Below are positions 1,366-19,590 of a stretch of 62,937 bases of DNA, piece by piece. The notes below the pieces were generated by a model. That model was not told the DNA's origin, did not search any database, and saw only the letters and a list, made by a program, of their open reading frames with translations. A program made the position numbers and the translations under genes. The stretch lies in the IMG/VR virus record IMGVR_UViG_3300031774_000009, positions 1-62,937 of that record; one strand, written 5' to 3'. The stretch's first letter is position 1. Every line of letters begins with the position of its first letter. The DNA comes from a virus.

Positions 1366-1493
1366 CGGAATATCTTTTTTAGCGTACGATTTCTTTTTAA
1401 CCTCGCTTGCATTATAGCGTCATCAATTTTTTTATCAATCAGCTTAAATGCCAAAATAGATTTGCCGCTTCGATTTTTGAATTCAATGTTCAT
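1362..1493 (-). CDS. Small hypothetical protein in SleB operon
   Basis: A 43-residue basic protein starting MNIEFKNRSGKSILAFKLID. It lies between the SleB-like gene (4-nt overlap at 1490-1493) and the next small gene (4-nt ATGA overlap). Tight overlaps on both sides argue that it is translated. No function can be assigned. Confidence 0.55.
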   Translation of the reverse strand: MNIEFKNRSGKSILAFKLIDKKIDDAIMQARLKRNRTLKKIFR

Positions 1494-1966
1494 AGTTTAT
1501 AGAATGCGTGTTGCCCAATTACTTTAACAGGCTTTTGGCCTTTTGCCCAGTATGGAAGTTTTTTCATCCATGTCGCGTGATAGTGGTTAGCATATCCAAC
1601 ATAGTCGCGACTTAATGTTTTCACATTCTTTGCAACGATAATTGCATACTTCGCTTGCGGCACTTTCAACAGATGCTCCAAGTCTTTTAATTTTTTACCG
1701 TTCCAACAACTAAATTGCCATTTTTTAAGGCATACCTCCGAGGGAGTCCGTTTTCTTTCAAATGCTCGTTGAGCAATGACAGCACCCACCGCATACATTC
1801 CCTTTTCCCCTTCGCCTCTGGCTTCCGCCAATATAGTGATTGCGACAATTTTGGTTTCACGACTGAGTTGATGGTTCTTATGTGTGTGGGCATAAACAGA
1901 GTTAACAATTAACAATAATTGAAACGCGAAAGGTATAACACAAAGAGATATAATAAATCTTTTCAT
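1490..1966 (-). CDS. SleB-like cell-wall hydrolase (putative endolysin)
   Basis: A 158-residue protein with an N-terminal signal or anchor segment (about residues 3-25), then a domain of the spore-cortex hydrolase SleB family (Hydrolase_2 type). The family signature is visible as ILAEARGEGEKGMYAVGAVI near residues 50-70; the Glu in AEARGE is the expected catalytic acid of these peptidoglycan-cleaving enzymes. The later GYANHYHATWMKK segment fits the family's conserved Tyr/His region. The start at 1966 lies 1 nt past the upstream stop. The secretion signal suggests export by the host secretion system, as in signal-arrest endolysins, so it is the best lysis enzyme candidate here, although it sits in the early-type left arm. 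Confidence 0.8.
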   Translation of the reverse strand: MKRFIISLCVIPFAFQLLLIVNSVYAHTHKNHQLSRETKIVAITILAEARGEGEKGMYAVGAVIAQRAFERKRTPSEVCLKKWQFSCWNGKKLKDLEHLLKVPQAKYAIIVAKNVKTLSRDYVGYANHYHATWMKKLPYWAKGQKPVKVIGQHAFYKL

Positions 1967-2447: not shown

Positions 2448-2603
2448 TTATTCGCACTCGTGGCATTGGAACCGGTCCAGATCATTCCAGTTTGCAGCCT
2501 CTTCTTGGCTGATCTGAAGTTTCTCGCCGCATCCGCAGCAAGACACTAACACGGGCGACTCTTCGCTAACGAAGACCTCTTCTAGTTCGATTCTATCCCT
2601 CAT
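2448..2603 (-). CDS. Small zinc-ribbon-like protein
   Basis: A 51-residue protein beginning MRDRIELEEVFVSEESPVLV. Its C-terminal two thirds carry a CCGCGEKL pair and a C-terminal CHEC pair about 25 residues apart, which fits a rubredoxin/zinc-ribbon-like metal site. Compact Cys4 proteins of this size often bind nucleic acid or protein partners; which applies here is unknown. The start is fixed by the promoter 10 nt upstream. Confidence 0.65.
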   Translation of the reverse strand: MRDRIELEEVFVSEESPVLVSCCGCGEKLQISQEEAANWNDLDRFQCHECE

Positions 2604-2641
2604 AACTGCAAACAGTATAGCACAACCTCCGAAAATTGCAA
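2604..2641 (-). promoter_or_regulatory. Near-leaderless sigma70-type promoter
   Basis: -35 TTGCAA (2641-2636), 16-bp spacer, -10 TATACT (2619-2614), 10 nt to ATG at 2603. Upstream lies an A/T tract (about 2647-2690), then element C. Confidence 0.7.
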
Positions 2642-2694
2642 GCATTATTTTCACTTTTTTTAAAAAACTTTTTTTACTTTTTTTCACTTTTATG

Positions 2695-2742
2695 CTTGAC
2701 ACGTAACGCTTCGCGGGCAGCCCGCCGGCCGTTACATGTCAA
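2695..2742. repeat. GC-rich inverted-repeat element, copy C
   Basis: Outer arms TTGACACGTAACG and CGTTACATGTCAA match over 12 of 13 pairs; the inner hairpin is GCGGGC-AG-CCCGC. It directly abuts the terminator at 2744-2770. Confidence 0.8.
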
Positions 2743-9880: not shown

Positions 9881-10032
9881 ATGTATGGGGAATTTTTTCT
9901 GGTGTTGTAGCTATTGTTATCGTCATAATATTTCATTACGCTTTTAATGTTGGAGGGATAGAAGAAAGCCCTAAAAAAGAAAGGCATAACCCAGATTTAC
10001 CTCTTCAAAGATACGGATCAGGAGTAAGATGA
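9853..10032 (+). CDS. Small single-TM membrane protein
   Basis: A 59-residue protein, MGIQKNKKIDVWGIFSGVVA at the start, with a single transmembrane helix at about residues 12-33 and a polar tail. An AGGAG ribosome site lies 5 nt before the ATG at 9853. It overlaps the previous gene by 28 nt in another frame and the next by ATGA. A single-TM protein followed by a lipoprotein matches the order of i-spanin and o-spanin pairs, though the periplasmic part is short. Confidence 0.6.
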   Translation: MGIQKNKKIDVWGIFSGVVAIVIVIIFHYAFNVGGIEESPKKERHNPDLPLQRYGSGVR

Positions 10033-10340
10033 AAATTTTAATAACTATCTTAATAATTGTCATGAGCACCGGCTGTGCATCATGGGGATGGGAATCAGTT
10101 GACTCCCATCATCATCGTCATTGGGAATATGATCACGTAGATGTACTTACTCATCATTATTACGACTACGGTCATCACCATCGTTATAAAGGGCGACATT
10201 CGCACAAAAAGAGAGCTTCACGGCCTTTACCAACATCACGGCCTCCTGTACCCCCTCGACGGCCTATAAGCCCTCCTACGAGATCTATTAGTAAAGGGAT
10301 TCCTAGCGACAGGGTGCCATCAAAGAGGAACGAAAAGTAA
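10029..10340 (+). CDS. His-rich, Pro-rich lipoprotein
   Basis: A 103-residue lipoprotein: signal peptide MKILITILIIVMSTGC with lipobox STGC (Cys16). The mature chain has a His-rich half (DSHHHRHWEYDHVDV, HHYYDYGHHH, RHSHKK) and a Pro/Ser/Arg-rich tail (RPPVPPRRPISPPTRS). The Pro-rich tail recalls Rz1-type o-spanins; the His clusters suggest zinc, nickel or copper binding. ATGA overlap with the single-TM gene upstream implies joint expression. Confidence 0.7.
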   Translation: MKILITILIIVMSTGCASWGWESVDSHHHRHWEYDHVDVLTHHYYDYGHHHRYKGRHSHKKRASRPLPTSRPPVPPRRPISPPTRSISKGIPSDRVPSKRNEK

Positions 10341-14589: not shown

Positions 14590-15315
14590 TTAGAAAGCGT
14601 ATTTAAGGCCAACCCAAACAGATGTCTGCTTATCAGCCTGCAAGCCAACAACATCCACATCATTATCAAGATGAGTGATTTTAATGTTAGGCTCAACGGT
14701 TGTACCCCATAATGAGACATCAGTAGAAATACCTACTCCGAATTGAGTATAATCGTATTCGTCACTAATACCCCATTTAACCGAGGGGGTGATTTTCCAA
14801 TCTTTATTGACAGCGGATACTTCCCAAGTTTTATGAAGCCCCCATGTTGCTCCTGTAAAACCGTAATCTACATCTTTCCACAGTGAAACAGAAGGAGTGA
14901 CCCACTCACTAATACCGATAGGGTCTTCTGTAACTTCAATAGTAGCTCCAACTGCGACGCTGCTATCAATAGCAGGATCAGCGATCTGATGACTACTGAT
15001 TCCACCTGAGGTTTTCAGACCGATATCTGCAATACTCCAACCTTTACTTACTCCAATATGGAAATGAGATTGAGTATCCTCTTCAGAAGCCAATAGATGA
15101 TAAGCCCCAGCGTTTATTGTGAGACCCCCTTTAACAGGGAATTTTCCATTGATTCCTGTGAGAAACCCATCTCCGCCATACGATAGACCGCGGATGTTGA
15201 TTTCATCTGCATAACCTGTAATAGCGCTAAAAGAAGGCTCCTCCGCCTGTACTTCTTGGACATTAGCAAATGCACAAGAACCGATTATTAACATTGTAAG
15301 AAATAATTTCTTCAT
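14590..15315 (-). CDS. Porin-like outer-membrane beta-barrel protein
   Basis: A 241-residue protein with a signal peptide (MKKLFLTMLIIGSCAFANVQ, cleavage likely after VQA) and repeated amphipathic strands (SVAVGATIEVTE, WVTPSVSLWKD, WKITPSVKWGISDEY, TQFGVGISTDVSLWG). It ends in aromatic-rich SVWVGLKYAF, the terminal Phe being the signal for barrel insertion into an outer membrane. It has its own sigma70-type promoter and terminator and is a stand-alone cassette. Possible roles are superinfection exclusion, replacement of a host porin or receptor masking. Confidence 0.75.
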   Translation of the reverse strand: MKKLFLTMLIIGSCAFANVQEVQAEEPSFSAITGYADEINIRGLSYGGDGFLTGINGKFPVKGGLTINAGAYHLLASEEDTQSHFHIGVSKGWSIADIGLKTSGGISSHQIADPAIDSSVAVGATIEVTEDPIGISEWVTPSVSLWKDVDYGFTGATWGLHKTWEVSAVNKDWKITPSVKWGISDEYDYTQFGVGISTDVSLWGTTVEPNIKITHLDNDVDVVGLQADKQTSVWVGLKYAF

Positions 15316-16404: not shown

Positions 16405-16476
16405 TTATTTTGTTTTTTTAGATTGGGTGCATTCACCCTGACAGGTGTCATCAAAACACTCTTTATTGGTGCACAT
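16405..16476 (-). CDS. Cys-rich micro-ORF at the end of the MscS operon
   Basis: A 23-residue frame, MCTNKECFDDTCQGECTQSK then KTK, with four Cys. Its ATG lies 1 nt after the TAA of the upstream gene, as in other coupled genes here. Four Cys in 16 residues with even spacing could bind zinc or form disulfides. It is too short for a firm call; the DNA contains a GGGTG-CATT-CACCC hairpin. Confidence 0.3.
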   Translation of the reverse strand: MCTNKECFDDTCQGECTQSKKTK

Positions 16477-16477
16477 T

Positions 16478-16672
16478 TTATTCAGACTTCGGCACAAGCC
16501 CGATGCCGCTACCATTTAAAGTAAAGCCACAAGCGATGCTAAAATTTTCCACACCCCCAAGGATTTGCTCTAATGTGAGATCTTCCCCGAGACAGTTTGT
16601 GGTGATATTTTCGACGAATTGTCCGGTGTAATCTACATCCTCATCACGATTAAAAAGATAATTATATTTCAT
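16478..16672 (-). CDS. Small hypothetical protein, MscS operon
   Basis: A 64-residue protein starting MKYNYLFNRDEDVDYTGQFV, with TNCLGEDLTLEQILGGVENF in the middle and a Gly-rich end. Its ATG overlaps the stop of the upstream membrane protein by 4 nt. Small and acidic; it could be a cytosolic partner of the channel-like proteins. No family recognised. Confidence 0.6.
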   Translation of the reverse strand: MKYNYLFNRDEDVDYTGQFVENITTNCLGEDLTLEQILGGVENFSIACGFTLNGSGIGLVPKSE

Positions 16673-16944
16673 TTATTATTATTAAGTAATTCTGTTATTT
16701 TTTCTACAGCTTTTTCTTTTACGTTGTCCGCTGCTTTATCAACGACCGTCTCTACGGATTTTTCAATCGCAGTATTCACTACTTTTTCTTTTAAGGAATC
16801 CTTTTTTTCTTGAACTTTTTCTCCAAAAATAAAGGCCACCGCGATCGCAGTCGCTATAATAATGATAATTAAGGTGACTCTTTTTTTAAAAGTTGTGTTT
16901 TTTTGTGCCTGTTCTTTTCTGAGCTTATTTTTTCTTTTTTTCAT
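16669..16944 (-). CDS. Single-TM protein with amphipathic helix, MscS operon
   Basis: A 91-residue protein: basic N-terminus (MKKRKNKLRKEQAQKN), one transmembrane helix (about residues 24-42, VTLIIIIIATAIAVAFIFG), then a long regular helix with heptad-like alternation (KVVNTAIEKSVETVVDKAAD). It overlaps both neighbours by 4 nt. The tail could form a coiled coil or lie on the membrane, which fits a partner of the MscS-like protein next to it. Confidence 0.65.
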   Translation of the reverse strand: MKKRKNKLRKEQAQKNTTFKKRVTLIIIIIATAIAVAFIFGEKVQEKKDSLKEKVVNTAIEKSVETVVDKAADNVKEKAVEKITELLNNNK

Positions 16945-17360
16945 TTTTTGGTAAAATCTGGGTCTCCACCTTTAGGTAAATATGCTGCCCCTCCATTTAA
17001 AGGGAGGGTTTTTTCAATGGTTAGTTCTTTCAATTGTTCGTTAGGTACAACCATCTTACTTTTACGATCGGTCATATAAAATGTAGTGCTTGTAATCCCC
17101 ACGCGAACAATGCGGGCTTGTCGTCCTGAAATATAGATTATATCGTCATTATTAAAGTGCGAACCATAAAAGACCATAATTCCTTTAGCGAAATTCATCA
17201 TTACATCTTTAATAAGGATAACCGCCACTCCTGCGAAGAAGAACCAACCATATTGCGAGAATAAATTTTGAGCCACATCTTCAAGTTGATTAGTCTCAAG
17301 TCCAGATAATTGATTGACCAAATTCGTGCTGTTTAATAAATTGGTTATGCTATCCGTCAT
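16941..17360 (-). CDS. Small MscS-like mechanosensitive channel protein
   Basis: A 139-residue protein with a hydrophobic helix (WFFFAGVAVILIKDVMMNFA, about residues 39-58) that leads into a domain like the pore helix and beta-domain of MscS: NFAKGIMVFYGSHFNNDDII, YISGRQARIVRVGITSTTFY, KMVVPNEQL. These match the family pattern of a pore-lining helix followed by G-D-x-I, G-x-V, STT and (I/V)PN. MscS proteins open at high membrane tension; this one is about half the usual length and lacks the outer helices and C-terminal domain. It lies in a four- to five-gene ATGA-coupled operon with a lipoprotein and a TM protein. A role in lysis timing, turgor control or superinfection defence is possible. 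Confidence 0.7.
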   Translation of the reverse strand: MTDSITNLLNSTNLVNQLSGLETNQLEDVAQNLFSQYGWFFFAGVAVILIKDVMMNFAKGIMVFYGSHFNNDDIIYISGRQARIVRVGITSTTFYMTDRKSKMVVPNEQLKELTIEKTLPLNGGAAYLPKGGDPDFTKK

Positions 17361-17545
17361 TTACTTTTATTCATTGGCATCAATTGTGGCCAAGATGGTA
17401 GAGGTGCGACGCTCTCGTTTTGTTGGGGCTGTGGTGCTTCATAATATTCTAATTCAATTCCAGTCAGACTTATATCCACTTCTTTTAGGTTGGCGCATCC
17501 GCTGAGTAGGATTATCAAAATTAAATATTTTAAAAAAACTTTCAC
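17357..17545 (-). CDS. Small lipoprotein, GTG start, first gene of MscS operon
   Basis: A 62-residue lipoprotein with lipobox LSGC (Cys17) after a hydrophobic MKVFLKYLILIILLSGC leader, then an acidic and Pro-rich mature part (EYYEAPQPQQNESVAPLPSW). The start is GTG at 17545, directly behind an AGTGTAAAACTTATT motif. The short Pro-rich mature chain resembles Rz1-type o-spanins. It overlaps the MscS-like gene by 4 nt. Confidence 0.65.
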   Translation of the reverse strand: MKVFLKYLILIILLSGCANLKEVDISLTGIELEYYEAPQPQQNESVAPLPSWPQLMPMNKSK

Positions 17546-19248: not shown

Positions 19249-19590
19249 CTAGTTTCGAGAGATATTATTATTTTTTTTGTCTCTTGCCGCTGTAGTGCGA
19301 GAGGCTTGTGCATTATGTTTAGCTACCTCTAACTCTAGCAATCGAATTCTTTCTGTGACTCTCCGAAGATCCGTAGTATTGCCGGTAATAGCTTGTTGAA
19401 GTACGGTCATTTCCGTAATTTTCTTATCCATTTGGATTAATTGGTTTTGAATTTCTTTGAATTCATCCTTGCTAGGAAAGAGCGTTTGTAAATACGCTAA
19501 TAAAGTCAAACCAAGAATGGGAGCTATTTTAAGAAATGTATCTAAATCTCCAAATTTCACTCTTTTGCTTTCTTGACCTTCTTTTGACAT
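19249..19590 (-). CDS. Membrane protein with coiled coil (spanin/holin-like)
   Basis: A 113-residue protein with a hydrophobic stretch (FLKIAPILGLTLLAYLQTLF, about residues 19-38), then a coiled coil (EFKEIQNQLIQMDKKITEMT; DLRRVTERIRLLELEVAKHN). One TM helix plus a long coiled coil resembles i-spanins and some holin-antiholin accessory proteins. The other protein of this shape here is that of 10865-11263. Not firmly assignable. Confidence 0.6.
   Translation of the reverse strand: MSKEGQESKRVKFGDLDTFLKIAPILGLTLLAYLQTLFPSKDEFKEIQNQLIQMDKKITEMTVLQQAITGNTTDLRRVTERIRLLELEVAKHNAQASRTTAARDKKNNNISRN

Follow-up and report, generated by a model that had tools for sequence, protein, structure and literature searches.

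The window analysed here is the complete IMG/VR record IMGVR_UViG_3300031774_000009 (positions 1-62,937; 62,937 nt). Positions 16405-17545 of its minus strand contain five densely packed ORFs. The most upstream encodes a small lipoprotein of 62 aa (17357-17545) with the lipobox LSGC and a conserved LKEVDISLTGIELEYY segment. It is followed by the ORF of a 139-aa protein (16941-17360), here named mini-MscS, which consists of an acidic variable N-terminus, one transmembrane (TM) helix, a TM3b-like segment, an MscS beta-domain and a short tail. Downstream lie a 91-aa TM/helical protein (16669-16944) with a basic N-terminus, one TM and an amphipathic/coiled-coil-like helix, a 64-aa acidic soluble protein (16478-16672; cluster 63, 8 loci) and a 23-aa Cys-rich microprotein, MCTNKECFDDTCQGECTQSKKTK (16405-16476). 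The lipoprotein and mini-MscS ORFs, the mini-MscS and TM/helical ORFs, and the TM/helical and acidic ORFs each overlap by 4 nt. An earlier, sequence-only reading had described this operon, and all of its ORFs were found on the minus strand where it had placed them. The Cys-rich micro-ORF, which it had added with a question mark, is also present, but is better started at the internal ATG at 16476, one base past the stop of the acidic gene; several relatives start at the same residue. Compared with relative L002, dN/dS was 0.06 for mini-MscS, 0.15 for the lipoprotein and 0.20 for the TM/helical ORF, indicating that these are real genes under purifying selection at the protein level, while the acidic ORF had saturated synonymous sites. 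A promoter and terminator scan gave little above chance.

Mini-MscS scores 30.3 bits with Pfam PF00924, the mechanosensitive channel beta-domain, whose cut-off is 20.2, and the cut-off was exceeded in 20 of 21 related contigs. The match covers the beta-domain and TM3b (aa 52-115; 17016-17207, minus strand), includes N56 and P106-N107, and is strongly conserved in both family alignments (A1 and A2). Two AlphaFold (AF2) models built from family alignments place a long helix at residues 23-66 and the strands of the beta-domain after it, with mean pLDDT values of 65 and 71.5, that is, moderate confidence. When both models were compared with the PDB by Foldseek, the 50 best matches were MscS, YnaI, MscK, MSL1, MSL10, Flycatcher1, YbiO and similar proteins, some entries being titled just 'membrane protein', and all 50 had probabilities of 0.97-1.00. 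TM-scores against MscS-family structures were low (∼0.37), so the packing of the helix against the domain in the models is uncertain. In the reverse direction, a search of 395 Bacteroidota genomes with the phage-family profile retrieved cellular MscS-type ORFs (294-409 aa) from 13 of them, with E between 2.7e-9 and 8e-5. Three of these were aligned, and their K(D/E)...N, F..(N/G)D, ST and PN motifs lined up with the phage family in the register expected. An hhalign comparison of the A2 profile with one E. coli MscS fragment gave the correct register at 17.8% probability and E 0.0014. HMMER profile searches of PDB sequences returned nothing at E ≤ 0.01, the best value in another run being 0.02. 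These last two results indicate that the family is distant from the structurally solved MscS proteins, and its beta-domain is ∼25% identical to that of MscS. A chance resemblance is ruled out by the PF00924 score, the Foldseek matches and the retrieval of cellular proteins by the phage profile. We therefore regard it as nearly certain that mini-MscS is the pore-beta module of the MscS superfamily, as the sequence-only reading had proposed; the predicted folds were those of the superfamily, and the many phage homologues were alike in their channel features.

The sole predicted TM helix of mini-MscS (aa 37-55; 17196-17252, minus strand) was located by hydropathy and by alignment to cellular MscS, and occupies the position of MscS TM3. 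One TM was predicted in 111 of the 114 distinct family proteins on which the comparisons of family features were made; the three exceptions appear to be over-extended or split predictions. The claim that the outer helices are missing thus holds for the family as a whole. TM1-TM2 and the C-terminal alpha/beta cage are absent from every aligned relative, so that the family lacks the three or more TM helices and the TM1-TM2 paddle of a canonical MscS. Its members are 109-181 aa long and end in a variable tail, the chain stopping ∼20-60 aa past the beta-domain. The flank N-terminal to the helix has a mean net charge of -3.2 and 1.4 Lys/Arg, and the segment just past the helix has 3.3 Lys/Arg. By the positive-inside rule, this argues for an N-out/C-in orientation like that of MscS TM3, and we infer that the N-terminus would be periplasmic and the beta-domain cytoplasmic, as in MscS. 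Residues N117 and N167 of MscS form the TM3b-beta contact pair that stabilises inactivation (PMC6174206). They align with N56 (103/114) and N107 (114/114) of mini-MscS. Thirteen residues were invariant in a diverse alignment: D72, G79, R80, A82, R83, R86, G88, T92, F94, D98, N107, L113 and E116. The helix has Gly or Ala at 4.1 of 13 residues, versus 7 of 13 in E. coli MscS TM3a, and MscS-like pore packing is therefore not assured and may differ.

One IMG/VR scan gave relatives of mini-MscS on at least 126 contigs, and other scans added more diverged ones. A tblastn search of 50,697 phage records with the window protein found no relative, and the same records queried with a relative from the T4-like group gave just weak cellular-type MscS matches. 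Among 84,980 GTDB genomes, scanned with two short exact patterns that would miss diverged members, a single one matched. This match lies on a 77-kb phage-like contig within a MAG, next to PhoH-like, terminase-like and sigma-factor-like phage genes. The phage origin assumed at the outset is borne out, and an origin as a host gene or by misassembly is ruled out, since the only match of the two-pattern GTDB scan is itself on a phage-like contig. The carriers differ in structural backbone: the window encodes a long tape-measure protein, carrier G018 is T4-like (T4 portal, E 2.5e-107), and the gene content of a third, ∼46-kb group is different again. Two mini-MscS paralogues occur together on contig L157/L231 (L157 1304-1633 and 4992-5414), one of them without the Pro of the PN motif. 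Prepilin-like proteins are encoded near mini-MscS genes at L157 3308-4288 and L147 7172-7465, a hint of Verrucomicrobiota-type hosts. Judged from its sequences, mini-MscS is a branch of the MscS superfamily that is confined to phages and pared down to the pore helix and beta-domain.

The sequence-only reading had suggested looking for the same operon in other phages, and its lipoprotein recurs there. Of 97 non-redundant loci in which mini-MscS has 500 nt or more of sequence to either side, 58 have a small lipoprotein of the window's family type adjoining it on one side or the other; the remaining ∼40% of loci have no adjoining lipoprotein. In most lineages the lipoprotein gene is downstream of mini-MscS, with a 4-nt overlap in 29 loci and a 14-nt overlap in 12, while in window-type phages it is upstream. 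The pairing has thus outlasted changes of gene order. The conserved part of the lipoprotein is a short segment past the lipid-anchored cysteine, which reads LKEVDISLTGIELEYY, GRLEKVRFSVPAFFQVEMDYYKD or LEVDTPFFDIEY; from position, size and motif, the LEVDTPFFDIEY form appears to belong with the other two. Mini-MscS and the small lipoprotein are a recurrent module. His-rich small lipoproteins are also encoded in several mini-MscS phages, at 10029-10340 (plus strand) of the window, at L191 3861-4169 (plus strand) and, in L154, ∼1.9 kb downstream of mini-MscS.

Whether TM/helical, acidic and Cys-rich ORFs accompany mini-MscS depends on the lineage, and a single conserved module of all linked ORFs is ruled out, wide recurrence being limited to the lipoprotein. 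Some relatives of the TM/helical protein are anchored by a TM and others carry a lipoprotein signal, and the acidic 64-aa protein was found only in window-type phages. The Cys-rich motif C-x-N-x2-C-F-[DEN]-D-T-C-x-G-E-C occurs in 34 IMG/VR contigs (examples are the window, L212, L224, L231, L082, L254, L270 and L273), 17 of which have mini-MscS in the examined flank; no match was found in cultured phages. The peptide, which is possibly metal-binding, is encoded as a lone micro-ORF of ∼19-25 aa or stands at the C-terminus of K/R/S/P-rich proteins, and in seven contigs it forms an N-terminal fusion with the mini-MscS lipoprotein. A spanin pair formed by the lipoprotein and the TM/helical protein is unsupported, because the PHROG spanin matches of the candidates are at chance level (E 0.04-0.11) and the helical protein switches anchor type. 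Elsewhere in the window, a TM and coiled-coil protein at 19249-19590 (minus strand), conserved in 28 related loci (cluster 22), is a possible inner-membrane spanin, with PHROG support at chance level. An outer-membrane-protein-like gene with a weak MipA match lies near mini-MscS at 14590-15315 (minus strand), and one that resembles it by eye is at L191 4224-4913 (minus strand).

The window encodes a Hydrolase_2 endolysin with an N-terminal Sec-type signal at 1490-1966 (minus strand; PF07486, E 8.5e-14; PHROG endolysin, E 4.8e-17). Its start is probably near 1966, and the start of the longer ORF at 2164 is probably wrong. Sec-type signals were found on the endolysins of the window and of five relatives (L233-L237), and these endolysins are strongly conserved. 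For an exported endolysin, a small depolarising pore, as made by pinholins, or a releasin-like factor would be sufficient. A large-hole holin should therefore be dispensable in window-type phages. The distance from endolysin to mini-MscS is ∼15 kb in the window, and in five relatives it is some 12-17 kb; mini-MscS of window-type phages runs antiparallel to the structural genes. Two paralogous small TM proteins (KIMLAI[FL]GGCAI...VMR) at 437-778 and 2448-2702 (minus strand) flank the window endolysin and are possible holin candidates.

The gene context in the ∼46-kb lineage is different. On a 46.6-kb contig, one strand carries in order a tail-fibre-like gene, mini-MscS, the lipoprotein, a 52-aa TM protein, a K/R-rich protein, a 57-aa two-helix protein and a second lipoprotein. 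The order mini-MscS, lipoprotein, ∼52-aa TM protein was kept in all 27 loci of this lineage (L204-L230), some of which also have a small two-helix protein (56 aa) by the cassette with weak holin matches (PHROG E 0.005, 0.14 and 0.34). Mini-MscS of the ∼46-kb lineage looks to be in late, structural/lysis territory. The mini-MscS proteins of the window and of L143 themselves had no match to any PHROG lysis or holin family.

From this context, the reading we favour, tentatively, is that mini-MscS is a late, lysis-associated membrane protein. Whether it forms a homo-oligomeric membrane pore is evenly balanced. The beta-domains would assemble a ring that bundles the single helices of several subunits in the inner membrane, and ring and lipoprotein would make up a late membrane complex. 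Such a complex might permeabilise or depolarise the inner membrane, or otherwise free the Sec-exported endolysin, and might thereby help to set the time of lysis. The full form of this proposal is rather unlikely: single-helix subunits in an MscS-type ring would form a small inner-membrane pore that, with a dedicated lipoprotein, is responsive to the state of the infected cell and triggers the exported endolysin, across phage types in uncultured hosts. We keep the lysis role short of probable because the endolysin is far from mini-MscS in window-type phages and the role is predicted from gene context. Several findings also count against it. The beta-domain is strikingly conserved, whereas lysis genes are usually fast-evolving; the lipoprotein does not adjoin mini-MscS at every locus; in window-type phages mini-MscS and the structural genes are on opposite strands; PHROG lysis matches are lacking; and the helix is poor in Gly and Ala. 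Lysis timing, which the sequence-only reading had also raised, nevertheless remains the leading idea, a possible one on circumstantial support.

A rival reading is superinfection exclusion, in which the inner-membrane ring and the lipoprotein would alter the envelope and block DNA entry of a second phage. Exclusion by small phage lipoproteins is known, that of the window weakly matches the Cor exclusion protein (PHROG E 0.018, mainly over the signal peptide), the TM/helical protein weakly matches a superinfection-exclusion family (PHROG E 0.027), and the outer-membrane-protein-like genes of the window (14590-15315) and L191 (4224-4913) are nearby. However, both PHROG matches are at chance level, mini-MscS is within the late structural region in the ∼46-kb lineage, and exclusion proteins are normally variable whereas mini-MscS is near-invariant; we consider this role unlikely. 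An osmotic or turgor valve, a minimal channel gated by tension or crowding that keeps infected cells intact until virions are ready, has a similarly small likelihood. It agrees with the retained pore-beta module and the N117/N167 equivalents, but the relatives have neither the cytoplasmic cage nor TM1-TM2, the helices with which MscS senses tension, and bacteria already own full-size MscS, such as a 375-aa ORF in a MAG.

Phage subunits might instead co-assemble through the beta-domain with MscS-family channels of the host and fix them in the open or the closed state. A shortened subunit that keeps its whole beta-domain, the ring-forming part of MscS in established structures, could act in this way; the domain has diverged from its cellular counterparts (the ∼25% identity given above) yet is conserved across phage backbones, which fits self-assembly better and makes modulation of host channels improbable. 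Equally improbable is a non-channel role as a cytoplasmic scaffold tethered to the membrane, be it an endolysin-freeing factor like the releasin Mu gp25 or a component of the virion or its assembly. The single TM, cytoplasmic domain and exported endolysins do resemble Mu gp22/gp25 (PMC9239132) and Gly/Ala is reduced in the helix, but the pore-shaping TM3b-beta motif of MscS is kept and a Pfam scan of mini-MscS gave no DUF2730 match.

If mini-MscS forms a pore, it would be a minimal MscS-type channel and would test whether tension sensing needs TM1-TM2; if it times lysis, as in the reading we favour, it would be a class of holins that arose from a cellular channel. In either case, its strong conservation across phages whose structural backbones differ suggests that these infections share a step still to be explained.

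The sequence-only reading had supposed that such a protein was undescribed in phages. For the single-helix family and its lipoprotein partner this stands, as no account of either was found in the open-licence literature, though others may exist. It does not stand for viral MscS-like proteins in general. A one-sentence report of 2022 gives an HHpred match to MscS/mechanosensitive channels for gp51 of the isolated myovirus PANV1 (Paraglaciecola Antarctic GD virus 1) (PMC9239159). By its published description, to which the comparison is confined, gp51 is like mini-MscS in its MscS match and one weakly predicted TM helix (PMC9239159), and PANV1 may offer a tractable relative. Mechanosensitive channel genes, MscS- or MscL-like, are also listed for large eukaryotic DNA viruses (PMC6163359). 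The Aureococcus virus protein differs in its 261 aa, its three TMs, the viruses and hosts concerned, and in having no reported lipoprotein module (PMC6163359). An estuarine virome study mentions genes for mechanosensitive channels (MscL) with other viral genes of osmoregulation (PMC13288924). The superfamily is known; its single-helix, phage-only variant with a recurrent lipoprotein is new.

Like mini-MscS, the holins, pinholins and Mu releasin gp25 are small inner-membrane phage proteins, and gp25 likewise has one TM and a cytoplasmic domain. No sequence relation to them was detected, and they act in lysis, while a lysis role of mini-MscS is suggested by gene context. With the MscS superfamily (E. 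coli MscS, YnaI and MscK, H. pylori MscS, plant MSL1 and MSL10) it shares the same TM3/TM3b-to-beta-domain module, the N...G, F..(N/G)D and PN motifs, the predicted topology and the best fold matches. Unlike these proteins, mini-MscS lacks TM1-TM2 and the C-terminal alpha/beta cage within its 109-181 aa, and it has phage-specific conserved segments (GRQAR, FYMTDR and EQLK among them), a helix poorer in Gly and Ala, and a lipoprotein partner.
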